From IMG/VR virus record IMGVR_UViG_3300030102_004227, positions 18,501 through 43,416 of that record: a DNA stretch of 24,916 nucleotides. One strand, written 5' to 3'. The stretch is from a virus. Shown piece after piece: positions 6,032-22,001 of this stretch (positions are counted from its first letter, which is position 1; each line of letters starts with the position of its first letter). Position numbers and translations under genes: made by a program. The notes beneath the pieces are model-generated. The model was not told the origin of the DNA. It was given only the letters and a program-made list of their open reading frames with translations, and did no database searches.

Positions 6032-6363
6032 ACAGTATTATGAAAGCCATGCGAGATGCTTTGAGATCTCGCAAAAGAGAAGCGCGAGAAAAAGAAAGGC
6101 AGGAGGCAGAGCAAGCAGCAGCGGAAGCCGCTGAGAAGAAACGACTTAGCGATCACCGGATCGCCACAAAAGAAGCTGCCATTAATGGAACGGAGCCTCC
6201 TCCTCCGCTAGAAGTCAAAGTGGAACCTGTAGTAGAAGCAGAGCCTGAGCCCGAGGTAGAAGTTAAGCCCGAACCTAAGAAAGCTCCTGCTAAAAAAGCT
6301 GCTACAAAGAAGGCACCGGCTAAGAAAAAAGCTCCCAAGAAAACCACAAAGAAGGAATCCTAA
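6028..6363 (+). CDS. Protein with histone H1-like Lys/Ala/Pro tail
   Basis: The 111 residues fall into three zones. Residues 8-42 form a charged helix (RSRKREAREKERQEAEQAA). Residues 56-83 are acidic and Pro-rich (EPPPPLEVKVEPVVEAEPEP). Residues 84-109 are strongly basic, with 13 lysines in 26 positions set as KK pairs about every five residues (KKAPA, KKAAT, KKAPA and so on), like the tail of histone H1 or bacterial AlgP/Hc1-type proteins. It starts within the last four bases of the portal gene and ends on the first base of the next. I do not recognise the family. DNA binding by the tail is likely on charge; a role in packaging, DNA condensation or core assembly is a guess from position. Confidence 0.7.
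   Translation: MNSIMKAMRDALRSRKREAREKERQEAEQAAAEAAEKKRLSDHRIATKEAAINGTEPPPPLEVKVEPVVEAEPEPEVEVKPEPKKAPAKKAATKKAPAKKKAPKKTTKKES
6277..6354 (+). repeat. Short KKxxx-coding repeats in the H1-like tail
   Basis: Five successive 15-base units encode KKAPA, KKAAT, KKAPA, KKKAP and KKTTK, followed by one more lysine. Codons for Lys and Ala differ between units, so this is mainly a protein-level repeat kept by selection on composition rather than a recent DNA expansion. Confidence 0.6.
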
Positions 6364-6596
6364 TGCCACTCCAGAAAGGTAAAAGCCAAAAAACTATTAG
6401 CAAGAATATCAGCATGCTACGCGGTGAGGGCAAGCCTCAAAAGCAAGCCGTTGCGATTGCGATGAAAACTGCCAAAGGCATGAAAGACGGCGGTGAGGTA
6501 AGCAAAGGTCAGCTCAAAGTGCCGGTACGCAGAGTCAAGACTCGTGGCACTGGCGCCGCTACGAAAGGGCTTTTTTATTACGAACAGGGTGATTAA
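6363..6596 (+). CDS. Small basic protein with GGEV and RGTGA motifs
   Basis: The 77-residue protein is strongly basic. Residues 1-38 (MPLQKGKSQKTISKNISMLR, then EGKPQKQAVAIAMKTA) match a small domain I remember from many phage genomes, close to DUF6496-type proteins, whose function is unknown. The rest carries a DGGEV motif (42-46) and a C-terminal KTRGTGAATKG (59-69). Both motifs recur in the basic proteins encoded at 13132-14346. Its ATG overlaps the stop of the H1-like gene and its TAATG stop overlaps the next start. A structural or DNA-associated role is plausible from charge and context but not shown. Confidence 0.75.
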   Translation: MPLQKGKSQKTISKNISMLRGEGKPQKQAVAIAMKTAKGMKDGGEVSKGQLKVPVRRVKTRGTGAATKGLFYYEQGD

Positions 6597-11650: not shown

Positions 11651-13132
11651 ATGGCAGAATCTGATCTTAGACTCGAAACAGACCTAGATAGAGCAGCCGC
11701 TGAGTATGCATCGGCTACCTCTCCGTTTGCTGAACTACAAAACTATCTGCTAGAACAACCAGTATTCGATCGAGACCCTCGCACACAGGCTAGCCAATTA
11801 CCTACACTCAGAAGCTTAGATCGTCCAGAGTATGACCAAGAGGCGTTGGCCCAACAGTACCAAGACTTGATTACCTCCCAGCGCGAGGCCGAAGAGGCAC
11901 AGAAACAAGAACGCGAAAAAGCGATTGCTGATCTAAGAACGGCGATTGCAGAACAAACAGCGACAGCAGCAGAAGCAGCGGCCGGTGAAAGGTCAGCGTT
12001 ATCCGCTGCATTAGAAGGCCGTATCCAAGAAGCAAGAGAAGCGGCGGCGGCAGAGGTCGCAGATCAAGGCACCATCATCGGTGACCTAAAAGATAGAATA
12101 GGTGGTTTGACCCAAGACCTAGGTGGCATATCGCGAACCATACAAGAAGAACAAGACAAGCTATCGGCAGAGCTGAGGGAGTCTCAAGCCGGCGCAGTAG
12201 ACCTTATCCAGGGCAGGATTAACAGCTTGAATGATGAGCTGGCTGGTGTATCTCAAGCAGTCGAGACAGAAACAGCCGCACAGTCTGAAGCTTTGCGGGG
12301 TGAACGAGAACAGATTGTTTCCGATCTAGAAAGCAGGATCGGCACACTTAGAGACCAGATAGAAAACTTACCCCTAAACGAAATCCAAAGTCAGATTGAG
12401 GGCATAACGACTCAATCGCAGAACTTCGCTGATACGGCTCGTACAGAAAGAGAAAGACTCGAAGCAGATCTTAGAGCTGCGTTAGAAGGTAGGGCAACAG
12501 CAGAAGACTTAGAGTCGCTAAGAGGCGACTACCAAGCCACTGGGCAATTGGTTCAAGAGGCGCTGCAAATAGGTCAAAGATCACGAGAAGGTATTCAAGA
12601 AAAGATCAAAGCCTTGCAAGCAGCTCAGCTTGATCCAGCACAAATAGAACAACAAAGAGCAGCAGCTATCACAGGGGCTGTCGATCCGATTCAAGCTCAA
12701 ATAGAAAAGTTGAGGGGCGAGATACCTCAACAGATAGATGTGGAGGCTTTGCGAAAGCAAATCACGGAAGAGGTATTGGCTGGCTTGCCTCAACCCACTA
12801 CAAACGTACAGGCTCCGGTGGTTTCTGTTGGCCCTGGCCCTGGAGGCATGGATCCATTTGGACAAGGAGGGATTAATACTATGCCTACCACTGAGGGTGC
12901 GGCTGAGATGGGTGCTACTCCGTTCTTTGATCCAGGCATTGGCAGTGAAATGGGTCAGGGTGGTGTTGATCCTACTGGGGCGGCTTTTGTGCCGTCACAA
13001 ACTAACGTGCAAAGAAGAGCTGTCACAGGAGAGCCTGAAGTCTTTCAAGCGAATCCAGCACAAAAACAAGCTGGCATATCTCCACCCCCAAGATTCAAGA
13101 ATATGCCCATAGGTAGAATAGGAATACGATAA
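11651..13132 (+). CDS. Long coiled-coil protein with Pro/Gly-rich tail
   Basis: The 493-residue protein is almost entirely helical from about 65 to 380, rich in Glu, Gln, Ala and Leu with few aromatics, and then switches to a Gly/Pro/Thr-rich tail (about 382-493, with VGPGPGGMDPFGQGG). Residues 141-260 are three 40-residue repeats, each placing an RI pair at the same point (149-150, 189-190, 229-230). There is no signal peptide or enzymatic motif. It lies between structural and very basic genes. The shape suggests a filament, spacer or internal scaffold; a tape-measure-like or ejection role is possible. The name stays descriptive. Confidence 0.75.
   Translation: MAESDLRLETDLDRAAAEYASATSPFAELQNYLLEQPVFDRDPRTQASQLPTLRSLDRPEYDQEALAQQYQDLITSQREAEEAQKQEREKAIADLRTAIAEQTATAAEAAAGERSALSAALEGRIQEAREAAAAEVADQGTIIGDLKDRIGGLTQDLGGISRTIQEEQDKLSAELRESQAGAVDLIQGRINSLNDELAGVSQAVETETAAQSEALRGEREQIVSDLESRIGTLRDQIENLPLNEIQSQIEGITTQSQNFADTARTERERLEADLRAALEGRATAEDLESLRGDYQATGQLVQEALQIGQRSREGIQEKIKALQAAQLDPAQIEQQRAAAITGAVDPIQAQIEKLRGEIPQQIDVEALRKQITEEVLAGLPQPTTNVQAPVVSVGPGPGGMDPFGQGGINTMPTTEGAAEMGATPFFDPGIGSEMGQGGVDPTGAAFVPSQTNVQRRAVTGEPEVFQANPAQKQAGISPPPRFKNMPIGRIGIR
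12071..12430 (+). repeat. Three 120-bp (40-residue) tandem coiled-coil repeats
   Basis: Residues 141-180, 181-220 and 221-260 align without gaps, with Arg-Ile followed three residues later by Leu at the same point of each unit (RIGGL, RINSL, RIGTL). The first two units agree further: L..G[IV]S, then LR near the end. DNA copies are diverged, so the duplication is old. Confidence 0.55.
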
Positions 13133-13503
13133 TGTCTTCACCAATACCAGATAATGTAGCGAACCCTGCGATTTACCGAAAAGCAAAAGCGAAGATGAAG
13201 CGTAAGTTTAAGGTTACACCCAGCGCATATAGTAGCGGCTACCTCGTACAAGAATATAAGCGCATGGGCGGCAAGTACAAAGGCGCCAAGAAGGCTGCCG
13301 GTGGTGAAGTAGCCTTTGATGCTAAGAAGAGTGACCTCAACAAAGATGGGAAGATTAGTAAATATGAAAGAGCTAGAGGCACTGCGATCGCGAAAAGCAT
13401 GGCTAAGAATATGAATAGAGGCGGTTCTGTATCTATCCAAGCTCGGGGGTGTGGCGCCATCATGCCTGAAAAGCAACGCCAGACTAGAGTTCCTCGTAGC
13501 TGA
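13132..13503 (+). CDS. Basic protein with EF-hand/dockerin-like loop and RGCGA motif
   Basis: The 123-residue protein is basic and modular. Residues 29-47 (TPSAYSSGYLVQEYKRMGG) match a small segment I recall in several marine phage proteins. GGEV (57-60) follows. Residues 68-79, DLNKDGKISKYE, fit a calcium-binding EF-hand or dockerin loop: Asp1, Asn3, Asp5, Gly6, Ile8, Glu12. Then come NRGGSV (95-100) and ARGCGAIMPEKQ (104-115), a C-terminal motif also found in the protein at 6363. Its start and stop overlap both neighbours by one base. Function is unknown; the company of basic proteins suggests a virion or DNA-associated role. Confidence 0.72.
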   Translation: MSSPIPDNVANPAIYRKAKAKMKRKFKVTPSAYSSGYLVQEYKRMGGKYKGAKKAAGGEVAFDAKKSDLNKDGKISKYERARGTAIAKSMAKNMNRGGSVSIQARGCGAIMPEKQRQTRVPRS

Positions 13504-13790: not shown

Positions 13791-14346
13791 CGGCGGTCTT
13801 ACAAAATGGTTTGAGCAAGATTGGGTTGATATCGGCGCTCCCAAAAAAGGTGGTGGCTTCGCTAAGTGTGGTAGATCAAAGTTAGAAAAAGATCGGAAAA
13901 GGAAATATCCTAAATGTGTTCCAGCGGCCAAAGCTGCTAGGATGACCGATAAACAAATTGCATCGGCGGTTCGTAGAAAACGAGCCAAAAAACAGGGGGT
14001 TGGTGGCAAGCCAACAAACGTGAAAACATTCGCAAAAGATGGAGGCATCATGATGAAAGCGAAGGGTGGCAAGATGAAGACCAAGGGAATGGCGATGAAA
14101 AAGCGCGGCCCTGGCATGAACAAAGGTGGCTCGGTCAAGAAGAAAGGACCAGGCATGAATAAGGGTGGCACCGTCAAGAAGAAGGGGCCAGGAATGAACA
14201 AGGGCGGCACAATTAAGAAAGTCGGTCCTGGTATGAACAAGGGCGGTACTGTTAAAAAGGTAGGCCCAGGTATGAATAAAGGTGGAAGCGTTAAGAAGCG
14301 AGGTGTACGCAAGCCATCTAACCGTAAAATCGGTTTGTACGGCTAG
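13777..14346 (+). CDS. Very basic protein with DUF5872-like domain and GPGMNKGG repeats
   Basis: Residues 6-70 of this 189-residue protein (LTKWFEQDWVDIGAPKKGGG, FAKCGR, YPKCVPAAKAARMTDKQ) resemble a domain I know from phages and giant viruses, close to DUF5872; its function is unknown. Two cysteines flanked by Lys and Gly (Cys31 and Cys46) may be structural. Residues 71-75 and following read RRKRAKKQGVGGKPTNV. The last half is a Lys/Gly/Met tail with DGGIMMKAKGG and five 13-residue GPGMNKGG repeats. The tail has no hydrophobic core and should be disordered and nucleic-acid binding on charge. It is the most basic protein of the window. Confidence 0.75.
   Translation: MAKRSGGLTKWFEQDWVDIGAPKKGGGFAKCGRSKLEKDRKRKYPKCVPAAKAARMTDKQIASAVRRKRAKKQGVGGKPTNVKTFAKDGGIMMKAKGGKMKTKGMAMKKRGPGMNKGGSVKKKGPGMNKGGTVKKKGPGMNKGGTIKKVGPGMNKGGTVKKVGPGMNKGGSVKKRGVRKPSNRKIGLYG
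14107..14301 (+). repeat. Five tandem 39-bp repeats encoding GPGMNKGG[ST][VI]KKx
   Basis: Units lie at 14107-14145, 14146-14184, 14185-14223, 14224-14262 and 14263-14301. Each encodes GPGMNKGG followed by Ser/Thr, Val/Ile, KK and one variable residue (K, K, V, V, R). Third codon positions differ widely between copies (Gly as GGC, GGT, GGA and GGG) while the peptide is almost invariant, which points to selection on the protein. Confidence 0.9.
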
Positions 14347-14351
14347 GAGTA

Positions 14352-15065
14352 TTGGCCTATCTGCAAAGTAACATACCGCATTTTAAGTGTTGGGTGCGGC
14401 GTGAGTACACTAAGAACCATGAGGAATATCATGGTGAGTTTTTACATGCGATGGCTATCGCCGTTACGACGATGCCAACTCGCTGTTTGTCGTTCCAGGT
14501 AATATTTACAGGAGCAGATACAGAACCAGACGAGCAGAACGTACACGGCGGTGCCATGTGGGCGAGGATGCCTATCACCGCGTTAGCAGGAGATTTTGAG
14601 TATGAAGGATGGCCGGACCCGATGCCGACTTGGGCTGCACAACCTTGGGATTGCTCTAGTTATCATCACGCTGTTTATGTGCTGGATCGCGCAACCCCTT
14701 GTCCGTGGTTGGCAAAGATTGATGGAGGCTTTTATCCTGCAAAGTACTTATTTACTGTGGACTATGCAGAGAACGAAATTGCCGATGACCCTGCTCAACA
14801 TAAGCAGAGCCATGTTCTGCAACTTCTGGACGCGGGTAACTGGACTGGTAATGTCGTTGCGCTCCCGAATAATCGAGTGAGAGTCACGCACCCAGCTTGG
14901 TTTGAGGCGGGAGAAGGTGCTCCTGACTTCAGACCCAGTCAGCACATCCATTACTCGAAGAGCGACTTGGATTACACGTTGGACGTAAACCAAGTGTTTG
15001 ATAATCTGTACGCTCCAGAGAAAAAGCCGAAGCGGAAGAAGAAGAATGGCACTAAGCGGAAGTAA
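14352..15065 (+). CDS. Conserved marine phage protein of unknown function
   Basis: The 237-residue protein starts at a TTG at 14352, because the residues right after it (MAYLQSNIPHFKCWVRREYT) match the N-terminus I remember for this family, and no ATG occurs in frame before 14448. AGGAG at 14345-14349 is only 2 bases from the TTG, closer than usual. The protein has many aromatic and His residues (GWPDPMPTWAAQPWDCSSYH, about 93-112) and a basic C-terminus (EKKPKRKKKNGTKRK). It looks globular and mixed alpha/beta. No known catalytic motif is evident. It lies at the border between the basic gene group and the neck genes. Confidence 0.7.
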   Translation: MAYLQSNIPHFKCWVRREYTKNHEEYHGEFLHAMAIAVTTMPTRCLSFQVIFTGADTEPDEQNVHGGAMWARMPITALAGDFEYEGWPDPMPTWAAQPWDCSSYHHAVYVLDRATPCPWLAKIDGGFYPAKYLFTVDYAENEIADDPAQHKQSHVLQLLDAGNWTGNVVALPNNRVRVTHPAWFEAGEGAPDFRPSQHIHYSKSDLDYTLDVNQVFDNLYAPEKKPKRKKKNGTKRK

Positions 15066-15741
15066 AAACTTTGAGCTAGATGTAGCGGATTATGTCGAAG
15101 AGGCATTCGAGCGTTGCGGCTTGGAGCTTAGGACCGGCTACGATCTAAAGTCTGCGAATCGCAGCTTAAATCTTATGTTAGCTGAATGGGCAAACCGTGG
15201 TTTGAACCAGTGGACGATCGCAGAGAAAACGATCTCTATGGTCAAGGACACTGCGACTTATAACGTAGACTCGACTAATGGCACTGCCGCTATCGACGTT
15301 CTCGACGCCTTCATCCGAGAAACGATCGGCGGCAAGTCAAACGACATTCCGTTATCACGGCTATCTCGATCCGACTACGCAGACATTGCAGTCAAAAGCA
15401 CAACCGGCAAACCAAATCAGTTTTTCATCAACAAACAGATCACGCCGACGATCTCTGTCTGGCCTACGCCAGATAAAAGCTCCACCTATGTGGTCCATCT
15501 CAACGTGTTAACCAGGATGGACGATGCGGATGTCGGAGCGGATACACTGGAGATACCGTTTCGGTTCTACCCGTGTTTAGCGGCTGGGCTTGCTTACTAC
15601 ATTGCACTGAAGCGAGTGCCAGAAAAGGTCCAGATGCTGAAGTCCTTGTATGAAGAAGAGTTCCAGAGAGCCATGAGCCAAGACGAGGACCGAGCGTCTT
15701 TCCACATTGCCCCAGACTTCCGTGGATATAACACGGCTTAG
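15046..15741 (+). CDS. Head-tail connector (neck) protein
   Basis: I start this 231-residue protein at ATG 15046, where the sequence MALSGSKNFELDVADYVEEA begins like the homologs I recall. The N-terminal half is helical (ERCGLELRTGYDLKSANRSL, then NLMLAEWANRGLNQWTI, about 24-60) and the middle is beta-rich with PRF-like and VWPTPDKSS segments, a layout seen in T7 gp11/P22 gp4-like adaptor proteins that form the ring under the portal. The C-terminal helix (PEKVQMLKSLYEEEFQRAMS) would pack against neighbours in the ring. It overlaps the end of the previous gene by 20 bases. Its exact counterpart (gp4 or gp11 type) cannot be settled by eye. Confidence 0.72.
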   Translation: MALSGSKNFELDVADYVEEAFERCGLELRTGYDLKSANRSLNLMLAEWANRGLNQWTIAEKTISMVKDTATYNVDSTNGTAAIDVLDAFIRETIGGKSNDIPLSRLSRSDYADIAVKSTTGKPNQFFINKQITPTISVWPTPDKSSTYVVHLNVLTRMDDADVGADTLEIPFRFYPCLAAGLAYYIALKRVPEKVQMLKSLYEEEFQRAMSQDEDRASFHIAPDFRGYNTA

Positions 15742-15743
15742 TC

Positions 15744-16067
15744 ATGGCTTTTGCGTCCAATAAGAATGCCTACGGAATCTGTGACATCACTGGATTCCGA
15801 TACAAGCTGAAGGACATGAAGATGACCTGGAATGGCTTGCTTGTCGGTCCTGATCAGTGGTCACCCAAAGAACCCCAGATTGACCCAAGGCCCAAGAAAG
15901 CAGATGCAGAGGCGCTAAGGATTAGCAGACCGGACCAAGCGGCTGGCGGGGAAGACGGGACATTCTTTCAAGTCTACACCAACACCGGACTTGGTAATTT
16001 GGGTACAACTTTACAAACTTTTGGAATAACTTGTACAATCGGTAGCGTGGAGGTGACGATCACATGA
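15744..16067 (+). CDS. Degenerate zinc-ribbon-like small protein
   Basis: The 107-residue protein resembles a family I remember in marine phages with the form 'ICDRCGF...EWTGFKVCPECY.PKHPQL', a four-cysteine zinc ribbon. Here the same frame of residues is kept (YGICDITGFRYKLKDMKMTW, then NGLLVGPDQWSPKEPQI), but three of the four cysteines are replaced: Cys13 remains, and Thr16, Gly35 and Gln38 stand where the others would be. The second half is a separate beta stretch (GTFFQVYTNTGLGNLGTTL) ending VEVTIT. It sits between connector and adaptor genes, suggesting a small neck or tail-assembly component. Its stop overlaps the next start (ATGA). Confidence 0.7.
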   Translation: MAFASNKNAYGICDITGFRYKLKDMKMTWNGLLVGPDQWSPKEPQIDPRPKKADAEALRISRPDQAAGGEDGTFFQVYTNTGLGNLGTTLQTFGITCTIGSVEVTIT

Positions 16068-16711
16068 GCTTTACTTTGGCTACTCTGAAAAGCACTGTGC
16101 AAGATTATTTGCAAGTTAATGAAACCACGTTCAACAGCAACCTGAACACGTTCATTCAAGAATCTGAGAGCCGCATCTTTAAAATGGTGCAGCTACCGCA
16201 ACAGCGCAAAAATGTGACCGGCACGGCTTCGCAAAACAATCGGTTCTTAGCTACGCCATCTGATTTTTTTGCACCATTCTCATTGGCTGTTATAGACAGC
16301 AGTAAGTATCACTATTTGGATTACAAGCACCCTAGTTTCTTGAAGGAGTTTTCTCCTACAACTACAACGACTGGGCGCCCAAGATATTACAGTTTGTTTG
16401 ATAACACGGCTTTTGAGCTATCGCCTGTGCCATCATCTGATTTTACAGTAGAGCTGCACTACCTACACAAACCAACATCTCTAACGTCTGGTTCTGATTC
16501 TGGCACGACTTTGTTGTCTACTGATCACCCAGATCCGTTGTTGTATGGAACGCTTGTGGAGGCCGCTGTTTTCCTTAAAGAAGACCCTAGTGTGATTGGA
16601 GCTTTCGAGGCTCGTTTCAAAGAAGGTATCTCCCGTATGAAGAATCTTACGGAGGGCAGGGATACCAGGGACGAGTATCGTTATGATCTACTACGCACTG
16701 GGGTGAGTTAA
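16064..16711 (+). CDS. Head-tail adaptor protein
   Basis: The 215-residue protein has an N-terminal helical pair (TLATLKSTVQDYLQV; TFIQESESRIFKMV, about 29-42), then beta strands with RFLATPSDFFAPFSLAVID (about 60-78), GRPRYYSLFDNTAFELSP (about 104-121), and a long C-terminal helix (LYGTLVEAAVFLKEDPSVIG). This order fits adaptor proteins of the T7 gp11/phage SU10 type, which bind under the portal ring and seat the tail. A second connector lies just upstream and a gp10-like stabilisation protein lies downstream, so the neck module is nearly complete. Assignment is from remembered family pattern and context. Confidence 0.75.
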   Translation: MSFTLATLKSTVQDYLQVNETTFNSNLNTFIQESESRIFKMVQLPQQRKNVTGTASQNNRFLATPSDFFAPFSLAVIDSSKYHYLDYKHPSFLKEFSPTTTTTGRPRYYSLFDNTAFELSPVPSSDFTVELHYLHKPTSLTSGSDSGTTLLSTDHPDPLLYGTLVEAAVFLKEDPSVIGAFEARFKEGISRMKNLTEGRDTRDEYRYDLLRTGVS

Positions 16712-17434
16712 TTGGAAAAAATAGAAAGTCTCGAAGGTAAACATATTGCAATCATCGGTCTAGGCGCCAGCCAAATAGACTATGTAATCGGAGTCGAAAA
16801 CAGCAAAACCTGGGACGAGGTTTGGGGCATCAACTCAGCCTTATCTGTCTTTGATGTGGATCGGGTCTTTATGCTGGATCCAGTCAGTCGTTTTCTCGAT
16901 ACAGAAGACGCCGGTAATCAAACTGACGTAATGCGTCGAGTGTTACCGAAATACACAAAGCCTATTTATACTTGTGAGCTGGATGAAAGAGTGCCGGCGC
17001 TCGTGGAATATCCACTAGAAGAGGTGATCGAAGACCAGCGATGTGCTTACATGAACAATACCACCGCCTACGCTTTGGCTTTTGCACTCTGGAACAGAGT
17101 CGGTCAGATAGATTTGTTTGGCATGGATTTCAGTTACAAACATAACTTGCACTTCGCAGAAGCCGGTCGCGCATGCCTAGAGTTTTGGATTTGTAAATGT
17201 ATCAACGAGAACATCACCGTAGGAGTCAGCCCGAGGTCATCTCTTCTCGATCAGAACGTGCCGATCGAAGAGAGATTGTACGGCTATCATCGACTGGCTA
17301 ACCCGAAGATAGCTATGCCAACGCCAGCGGATGAGTGGATGGTTTGCGACCGATCCGATCTTGCCAAGATGGTAAAGAAACACAAACTAGAAACCGTAGA
17401 GCTGCCCTCCGCTCCAGAACCATACAAGGGATAG
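16712..17434 (+). CDS. DUF115/GT42-like Rossmann protein (possible glycosyltransferase)
   Basis: The 240-residue protein starts at TTG 16712, one base after the previous stop; the first in-frame ATG would remove the nucleotide-binding fold. Residues 11-20 (HIAIIGLGAS) form a beta strand plus a Gly-rich turn, followed by DEVWGINSALSVF (35-47) and RVFMLDPVSRF (51-61). Further along, NNTTAYALAFALWNRVGQID (115-134) leads into LFGMDFSY (135-142). This order, GxGxS, then 'aINsal', then 'D..flLDP', then a helix and 'lxGxDfxY', is like the MAF_flag10/DUF115 family and the GT42 sialyltransferase-like fold. It may transfer a sugar or bind a nucleotide. The link is by pattern only; the location inside a tail module is unusual for an enzyme. 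Confidence 0.7.
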   Translation: MEKIESLEGKHIAIIGLGASQIDYVIGVENSKTWDEVWGINSALSVFDVDRVFMLDPVSRFLDTEDAGNQTDVMRRVLPKYTKPIYTCELDERVPALVEYPLEEVIEDQRCAYMNNTTAYALAFALWNRVGQIDLFGMDFSYKHNLHFAEAGRACLEFWICKCINENITVGVSPRSSLLDQNVPIEERLYGYHRLANPKIAMPTPADEWMVCDRSDLAKMVKKHKLETVELPSAPEPYKG

Positions 17435-17436
17435 CA

Positions 17437-17733
17437 ATGATCAAAGATGATATCGGTTTTCAGTTGGGTCAGGTGATGGTGTCAACGACCGAGAATAAAG
17501 GTCACGATGCAGAGTTCTGGGCTGAGCAAGTCACAAAAAAAATAGTCGGTATTTCAGCTCAAGCGGATCCGGTTGTAAGACAGCAAGCGGAGGCTTTCCG
17601 AAACCAGGTTTATACACTAATATTGATGGGGATAAAGAACGCTATAGCTTCTGATCGTGTCACTATTCGAGGATTACTCGCTAGCCAAGGTCACGGAGAT
17701 ATGGCTAATATAGTGAAGCAACTAGATTCATAG
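17437..17733 (+). CDS. Small conserved phage protein
   Basis: I take ATG 17437, just after the previous stop, as start (98 residues); an in-frame ATG at 17335 would lie inside the preceding gene. The sequence GFQLGQVMVSTTENKGHDAE (7-26) and FWAEQVTKKIVGISAQADP, followed by RQQAEAFRNQVYTLI, recalls a small helical protein common between adaptor and tail genes of marine phages, with no assigned function. The TAG stop begins one base before an AGGAGG that serves the next gene. Confidence 0.75.
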   Translation: MIKDDIGFQLGQVMVSTTENKGHDAEFWAEQVTKKIVGISAQADPVVRQQAEAFRNQVYTLILMGIKNAIASDRVTIRGLLASQGHGDMANIVKQLDS

Positions 17734-20071: not shown

Positions 20072-20379
20072 GTAAGCTCCTCGAAACCAGGTTACCTGAT
20101 GCGAGAGGAGAAAGCGTCGATTCTCAGACGTTCAATCGCTTGGTTAGAGTGCTAGAACTCAACCTCGGCAAGGTAGATATCACCATTAGCCCCCATTTCA
20201 ATTCCACTGAAATAAGCCAACTAGCATTTGCAACAGGCGCGATTATTTTCAATACTACAAACTCCATCCATCAAGCGTTTGATGGCACCCAGTTTCGTGA
20301 CCTTTATAGTCACCAAACATATCCTGTTGGGGTATCATTGACCGCAAGTGTGGGAGCAGTGACGGTGACGATTTCATGA
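20068..20379 (+). CDS. Small tail or tail-tip protein candidate
   Basis: The 103-residue protein has an N-terminal helix (DSQTFNRLVRVLELNLGKVD, about 18-37), then a strand-rich second half with ISQLAFATGAIIFNTTNSIH (49-68) and QAFDGTQFRDLY. The latter pattern, 'G.iifNttt...q.f.Gt.w..l', is typical of small domains in tail fibres and collar proteins. It ends VGAVTVTIS, like the end of the protein at 15744. ATGA overlaps join it to both neighbours. It may be a short tail-tip or fibre-attachment protein, too short to be a full receptor-binding fibre. Confidence 0.65.
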   Translation: MSKLLETRLPDARGESVDSQTFNRLVRVLELNLGKVDITISPHFNSTEISQLAFATGAIIFNTTNSIHQAFDGTQFRDLYSHQTYPVGVSLTASVGAVTVTIS

Positions 20380-22001
20380 ACCAGATGTTAGAACAGCGTA
20401 TAGCAAATTTGATGGGTGATACTGAGCCGATGCCCATGATGATGCAAATGGGTGGTGAGGTAGATGCGGCGCCAAGCGCCGAACAGGCTGTTGAGGCTCT
20501 TATGATGGCTCGTCAAGAAGCAGAAGATCCTACGGAAAGAATGCTTACTGATAAAGCTATCCAGGGCGCTCAGATTGCACAAGAATCAGAGCTTGCTGCG
20601 CTGGCTCAACAAATCGCAGCAGCAGGGCGAGGTCCAGATACAACACTTGCTCACCTGACACCTGGCGAAGTCGTTTTACCGCCAGAGATGATGGAAAGCC
20701 CATCCTTTGAAACAGCAGTAGAAAACAGATTCAGAGAGTTGGATCTCAACCCAGAACAGTATGTGGTTGGGATGGGCATCGCCTCTCTGAATCCACAAAC
20801 AGGTTTGGAGGAGTTTGGCTTTTTTAAGAAGCTCGGTAAGAAACTCAAAAAAGTTGCGAAGGTTATTGCTCCAGCCGCGATGTTGATACCAGGAGTCGGG
20901 ACGGCAGTCGGAGCTGCGCTCGGCGGGATTGGCAGTTTGGGCGGCGCGGCCCTTGGAAAGATTGGTTTAGGTGGAGTTGCGAAAGGGATAGGAGCATTAG
21001 CAAAAACCGGACTTGGAAAGGTTGCCAGTTTGGGGATACCTGGTCTCAGTCCAGTTGCTGGAGGAGCTGTAGCTGGGGCCGGTGATTTAGTAGGGACGTT
21101 GACGGGAGCTTTGAAGACTCCTTTAGCTGGAAGTGTGTTCGGAGAGACCGGCTCTACTTACATCGGCGGTCCAGAAGCCGGCAAGGGGTTAGCTAATTTC
21201 CTTGGCATAGGAAGTGGAACTCCTACAGAAATAGAAGCGCAACAAGCGGCACAAGATGCTGCGGCAGCTTTAGAACAACTGACCCCAGAACAAAAAGCTG
21301 CACTGCCCAAAGAACAACTTGCTCAATTAGAAGCTCTTGCCGCTTCGGCTCCAAGCAGGGTGAGTCGCCTTCTCGGGACTGGCCCTCTACAAGCTTTGAC
21401 AGGAAAGCCGACTACGTTAGCCAGTTTATTCGGTACGGGTGGTGGAGGCATGAGCCCTTTAGTTAGCGGAGGTATCGCTGCCTTACTAGGCAAGCTTGCA
21501 TTTGATGAAGCCAAGAACAGAAGAGGCGTACCTCGAACTCCGCTCACGACTATGGATGCGATGGGGCGTTTCAACATTGAGCAAGAGATAGCTCGACGCA
21601 TGGGCAAAGGTGATGTCGATCCGAGAGAGTTTGGCTTGATGGCACGAGGCACTATCCCGACATTGAGTGGAGGCAGGAAAGCCCCAGAGCAGAAATACAT
21701 GGGTGGCCCTGTAATGGCATACGCAGAAGGCGGCGGTGTTGAGATGGAAGAATTTAAAGCGATGGATGGAAAGATCAACGGACCTGGCACAGAGACCAGT
21801 GACGATATTCCAGCCATGCTTTCTGATGGTGAGTTTGTCATGAAAGCACAAGCCGTCCGAGGAGCAGGAGCATTCGATCTGAGCAAAGGTGACGGTGGTA
21901 TTATCACGCTCAAGCCAAACGGGAAGGAGAGCAGAGAGCGTGGCACTCAGATCATGTACCAAATGATGGATATGTTTTCTAACCAGGCGAGGGCGAGCTA
22001 A
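20376..22001 (+). CDS. Putative internal (ejection) protein with membrane-active segment
   Basis: The 541-residue protein is Ala/Gly/Leu-rich. An acidic helical start with MQMGGEVDA (24-32) is followed by HLTPGEVVLP (93-102). Residues 149-182 run FFKKLGKKLKKVAKVIAPAA and then a Gly/Ala-rich hydrophobic stretch (to about 245), a cationic amphipathic plus hydrophobic pattern suited to membrane insertion. The C-terminal part has YMGGPVMAYAEGGGVEMEE (441-459) and SDDIPAMLSDGEFVM (475-489), which I recall from marine phage virion proteins. It follows the tail genes and precedes two more large helical proteins, as the ejection proteins do in P22 and T7. The role is inferred from composition and order. 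Confidence 0.68.
   Translation: MNQMLEQRIANLMGDTEPMPMMMQMGGEVDAAPSAEQAVEALMMARQEAEDPTERMLTDKAIQGAQIAQESELAALAQQIAAAGRGPDTTLAHLTPGEVVLPPEMMESPSFETAVENRFRELDLNPEQYVVGMGIASLNPQTGLEEFGFFKKLGKKLKKVAKVIAPAAMLIPGVGTAVGAALGGIGSLGGAALGKIGLGGVAKGIGALAKTGLGKVASLGIPGLSPVAGGAVAGAGDLVGTLTGALKTPLAGSVFGETGSTYIGGPEAGKGLANFLGIGSGTPTEIEAQQAAQDAAAALEQLTPEQKAALPKEQLAQLEALAASAPSRVSRLLGTGPLQALTGKPTTLASLFGTGGGGMSPLVSGGIAALLGKLAFDEAKNRRGVPRTPLTTMDAMGRFNIEQEIARRMGKGDVDPREFGLMARGTIPTLSGGRKAPEQKYMGGPVMAYAEGGGVEMEEFKAMDGKINGPGTETSDDIPAMLSDGEFVMKAQAVRGAGAFDLSKGDGGIITLKPNGKESRERGTQIMYQMMDMFSNQARAS

Follow-up and report, generated by a model that had tools for sequence, protein, structure and literature searches.

What does a small protein do when it is held in one place between the adaptor and the tail genes of a marine phage? 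The question is raised by a locus in the window, by which we mean the whole 24,916-nucleotide stretch of viral DNA analysed here. An initial annotation had noticed an open reading frame with the motifs HIAIIGLGAS, WGINSALSVF, RVFMLDPVSRF and LFGMDFSY, and the frame is present, encoding 240 amino acids with all four motifs (Table 1).

The TTG start that had been proposed lies directly 3' of the adaptor stop codon TAA (16709-16711). Start codons align among relatives: of 322 aligned sequences, 172 begin with ATG, 53 with GTG and 51 with TTG, and the TTG call is therefore correct. The start is conserved and TTG a local variant of it, which is thus no sign of dosage control. The suggestion that the protein might be needed in stoichiometric control is not supported, with ATG the commonest start in relatives and the protein missing from related phages that share the neck genes. 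The packing is as tight as had been described, the adaptor abutting the gene on its 5' side and the next gene opening with ATG 17437, just past the stop at 17434; a GTG start at 17335 for that downstream gene, given in the open reading frame list, was rejected. Pairwise dN/dS is ~0.02-0.04 in pairs without synonymous saturation. The open reading frame is genuine and under strong purifying selection.

Table 1. Features of the locus, with positions in the window and residue numbers in the 240-residue protein.
Feature	Position	Strand	Basis or conservation
Gene for the protein of predicted DUF115/MAF/GT42 fold, 240 aa, TTG start	16712..17434	+	ORF, family alignment, model
Shine-Dalgarno-like GGGGTGAG, preceding the TTG start	16700..16707	+	sequence
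SU10-type adaptor, directly upstream	16064..16711	+	PF24175, E 3.3e-25; 314/314 loci
Small gene, function unassigned, directly downstream	17437..17733	+	296/297 loci
G-x-G-A-S loop, residues 16-20, after strand 1	16757..16771	+	G18, S20 invariant; counterpart GNGPS in PF01973/CstII
D56-P57-V-S59-R60 loop, after strand 3	16877..16891	+	D56, P57, R60 invariant
N115-x-T117, start of putative pocket helix	17054..17062	+	T117 invariant
G137-M-D139-F140-S-Y142 (GxDFsY), after strand 5	17120..17137	+	common to PF01973 members
H147, similar in position to the catalytic His of GT42	17150..17152	+	by inspection
E150	17159..17161	+	invariant
S176-S-L-L179-D180 loop, after last core strand	17237..17251	+	S176, L179, D180 invariant
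YGYHRL, residues 190-195	17279..17296	+	family-specific; Y190, G191, H193, R194, L195 invariant

Family, predicted fold and superfamily

Scans of IMG/VR contigs, together with two contigs from cellular MAGs, yielded at least 327 loci with the gene, one copy each; the count is a lower bound and the family is larger than this. The lowest identity of members to the window protein is ~47-50%. Among 85,000 species genomes, two contigs carry the gene, L250 and L251, one from a gammaproteobacterial and one from a Trichodesmium MAG. Because both have the same phage capsid-to-tail gene order, they probably come from phages and were binned with cellular contigs, or else are proviruses.

No significant family emerged from scans of the protein and 32 or 26 relatives against Pfam, PHROGs and NCBIfam, and profile searches of PDB sequences gave chance-level matches only. 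In phage records, tblastn of the protein itself (P0001) found nothing and tblastn of one relative found a single distant match; the P0002 viral scan returned no relatives, and a literature search on phage DUF115 or MptE-like proteins found nothing relevant. An apparent distant homologue is XAN61349.1 of Microcystis phage Mvi-Yong1342-1 (hhalign E 2.7e-07 over 95 columns; profile E 6e-08). Its gene (L330 7848-8651, PP496355.1) adjoins terminase genes, unlike the gene studied here, and its name, 'type 11 methyltransferase', is probably a misannotation.

The AlphaFold2 model built on an alignment of 50 diverse members (mean pLDDT 85.2) has a beta-alpha-beta core with strands at residues 11-15, 36-40, 51-53, 85-87, 132-136 and 169-172. 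An earlier model, built on 32 close relatives only, was of low quality (pLDDT 59.7), yet indicated the same folds. The initial annotation had set a Rossmann-like core beforehand as a test of its reading, and the predicted model contains one. The DUF115/MAF/sialyltransferase-like fold that it had suggested is likewise what structure prediction and fold search point to. The top VIA-align match is the Magnetospirillum MAF glycosyltransferase 5mu5 (MAF_flag10, PF01973; Z 12.0 over 165 residues), followed by the archaeal HPPK 8sd5 (Z 11.8), SteA (Z 10.5), the GT42 sialyltransferases CstII and Cst-I (Z ~9-10 over 149-165 residues), thiamin pyrophosphokinases (Z 7.0-9.9) and mammalian GT29 sialyltransferases (Z 6-7); beyond superfamily members the scores drop to Z ~5. 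Residues 1-182 carry the match. Foldseek agrees (HPPK 5.9e-06, CstII 2.1e-04), and among viral structures it returned uncharacterised phage proteins and some annotated as MptE-like.

The likeness to MAF is one of fold and motif order at 14% identity. MAF is built of three domains (PMC11339370), whereas the phage protein is a single unit without the flanking N- and C-terminal domains, its residues 1-180 aligning only to the central part of 5mu5 (264-499); it also has the YGYHRL motif of its own and escapes detection by the PF01973 model. Identity to CstII and Cst-I is 14-19%. The archaeal HPPK aligns over 147 residues at 12% identity, and this match, together with the thiamin pyrophosphokinases, could be taken to mean that the protein is a pyrophosphokinase of the HPPK or thiamin type acting on a small molecule. 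We regard that as very unlikely: the gene sits in the virion block, and we saw no adjacent folate, thiamin or similar genes.

Sequence comparison leads to the same superfamily. Run against 398 genomes, the family profile found the MAG phage contig and one weak match, L480 (E 0.0012). L480 is a clear PF01973 (MptE-like/DUF115) protein (E 2.8e-32), partly similar to the flagellin modification protein PseD, and hhalign aligns it to the family with E 4e-07, a pairwise value uncorrected for the database. A profile built from seven PF01973 domains also matches CstII (E 0.0015), and the motif order GxGxS...N...D/NP...T...GxD(F/L/H) is common to the family, PF01973 domains and L480. Against seven cyanobacterial PF01973 domains hhalign gave a short match only (E 0.06). 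At the PF01973 gathering cut-off the protein itself had no match, the best value among 26 members being E 0.064 in one of them. The GT42 model PF06002 matched nothing in G000 and nothing in any control genome, with one junk match in 369 genomes; because it failed in the controls as well, its absence carries little meaning.

Since the sequence links to PF01973 and the predicted fold agree, we consider membership of the DUF115/MptE-MAF-GT42 superfamily secure, with high confidence. The protein is a superfamily relative and not a PF01973 member proper, its score falling under the gathering cut-off. It represents a new, divergent and large family of marine viruses within a known superfamily.

Conserved residues and a putative pocket

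The initial annotation had also looked to conserved acidic or His residues. D56, D139, E150, D180 and H193 do not vary across 322 sequences, nor do, among others, G18, S20, N41, R60, D91, R93, T117 and S176. Seven invariant residues (S20, N41, D56, T117, D139, E150 and D180) lie on the pocket side of the model, that is, at the C-terminal ends of the strands. Near-invariant residues make up 19 of 49 positions on that side versus 4 of 32 on the other, a contrast that is nominally significant (Fisher p 0.012). A circular-shift test was not significant, 16 of 194 shifts giving pocket-side conservation as high, and for this reason the pattern counts as mild support.

The residue that by inspection is placed like the catalytic base of GT42 behaves differently. 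In CstII that base is His188, as confirmed by NMR (PMC4202792), whereas its candidate counterpart, H147, is not conserved across the family: 258 of 322 members have His there, and the remaining ~20% have G, Y, N, A or M. The tree has four changes at this position, at least two of them forced by well-supported branches, with the other residues intact, and the His was lost more than once inside one subclade. Given this replacement, the alignment argues that a GT42 mechanism using H147 is not family-wide.

Genomic setting

The placement between adaptor and tail genes that had been described is a fixed site, with the adaptor directly 5' of the gene in 314 of 314 loci (Table 1). Close relatives of the adaptor have the gene beside them in 45 of 45 scorable loci. 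Adaptors of the HTVC023P type have it in none of the 63 loci with a readable next gene, and there the tail gene g17807 follows directly. These pelagiphages have homologous terminase, portal, capsid, adaptor and g17807 genes in similar order near the site, lack the gene at that place and carry a GT1 glycosyltransferase. HTVC023P, HTVC027P and Roseobacter phage CRP-901 all lack it in a gene order that otherwise matches. Phage DSL-LC04 has the adaptor and a homologue of the small downstream gene without it, and the idea of a two-gene cassette was dropped, the downstream gene occurring there alone.

Because relatives with the same neck module do without it, the protein is not a core neck or tail protein, and it looks like a lineage-specific insertion. 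A single gain at one site in the clade that bears the gene is the simplest reading; loss in the other lineages may instead account for the pattern.

GT1 was found in none of 15 long records with the gene versus all five HTVC023P-type records without it (the contrast involves L481, L482, L483 and L484). This suggests that the protein may replace the GT1 glycosyltransferase of the sister phages, although the contrast tracks clades and is therefore not independent evidence. CRP-901 and DSL-LC04 have neither.

The window has some further features. Two SU10-type adaptor paralogues (15046-15741 and 16064-16711) lie on either side of an open reading frame at 15744-16067. The gene at 14352-15065 matches phrog_3704, 'ferredoxin', while its HTVC023P homologue gp44 is annotated as PurM, and the two names conflict. 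At 14113-14298 a 39-bp tandem repeat of 4.8 copies encodes GPGMNKGGTVKKK-type repeats, and GG(E/S/T)V motifs like those of this repeat occur in the open reading frames 6363-6596, 13132-13503 and 20376-22001.

Possible activities

The fold alone does not fix what the protein does, since the superfamily includes pyrophosphokinases as well as the regulator SteA. The function proposed in the initial annotation is a reasonable one, and the protein is probably an enzyme. The likeliest reading, that it is a glycosyltransferase acting on virion proteins, we place somewhat short of an even chance. In such a scheme, a phosphonucleotide, the ligand suggested by fold, homology and conservation, would bind to the Rossmann-like domain at the C-terminal strand ends. 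The donor would be a nucleotide-activated sugar made by the host, perhaps a CMP-linked one like those used by MAF and GT42, and the acceptor a late-infection protein, probably one that belongs to the tail or neck of the virion or binds the receptor. The gene would have been gained once between the adaptor and tail genes and then kept, its position implying co-expression with the structural genes. Against a glycosyltransferase stand the losses of H147 and the lack of any GT2 or CMP-sugar synthetase (PF02348) in 16 records with the gene, the window's own included. A more specific version of the idea, a new glycosyltransferase family with the MAF/sialyltransferase fold and a changed active site, which glycosylates neck, tail or receptor-binding proteins of the phage itself in place of the sister GT1, we rate as rather unlikely in its entirety.

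An enzyme of the same class could be directed instead at the host, modifying a surface glycan or lipopolysaccharide, for example against superinfection. The predicted MAF/GT42-like fold would suit this, and we count in its favour that Campylobacter GT42 enzymes use lipooligosaccharide as acceptor (PMC4202792) and that pelagiphage glycosyltransferases have been linked to lipopolysaccharide modification (PMC9599517). An envelope modifier, however, would be less bound to a late neck/tail block than a gene fixed there in 314 of 314 loci, and we think this target unlikely.

It is also conceivable, though fairly improbable, that the protein is no enzyme and binds a nucleotide or sugar as a part of the neck or of virion assembly. 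SteA, which is among the best structural matches and in which a thiamin-pyrophosphokinase-like domain serves regulation, is a proposed phosphonucleotide-binding protein (PMC12977500); the locked synteny with the adaptor and the loss of the candidate catalytic His would fit such a role. That so many residues of the putative pocket are both polar and invariant speaks against it, as does the absence of the protein from phages in which adaptor and tail homologues occur; because those relatives lack it, the protein is not needed for neck architecture.

In summary, a family that Pfam, PHROGs and NCBIfam all miss now has a place in a known enzyme superfamily and a proposed function that can be tested. 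Abundant marine phages carry many genes that are fixed but nameless, and the clade bearing this one is uncultivated. If the glycosyltransferase reading is true, a sugar-transfer enzyme in the neck/tail block would provide a handle on the sugar-coating of phage surfaces in the ocean.
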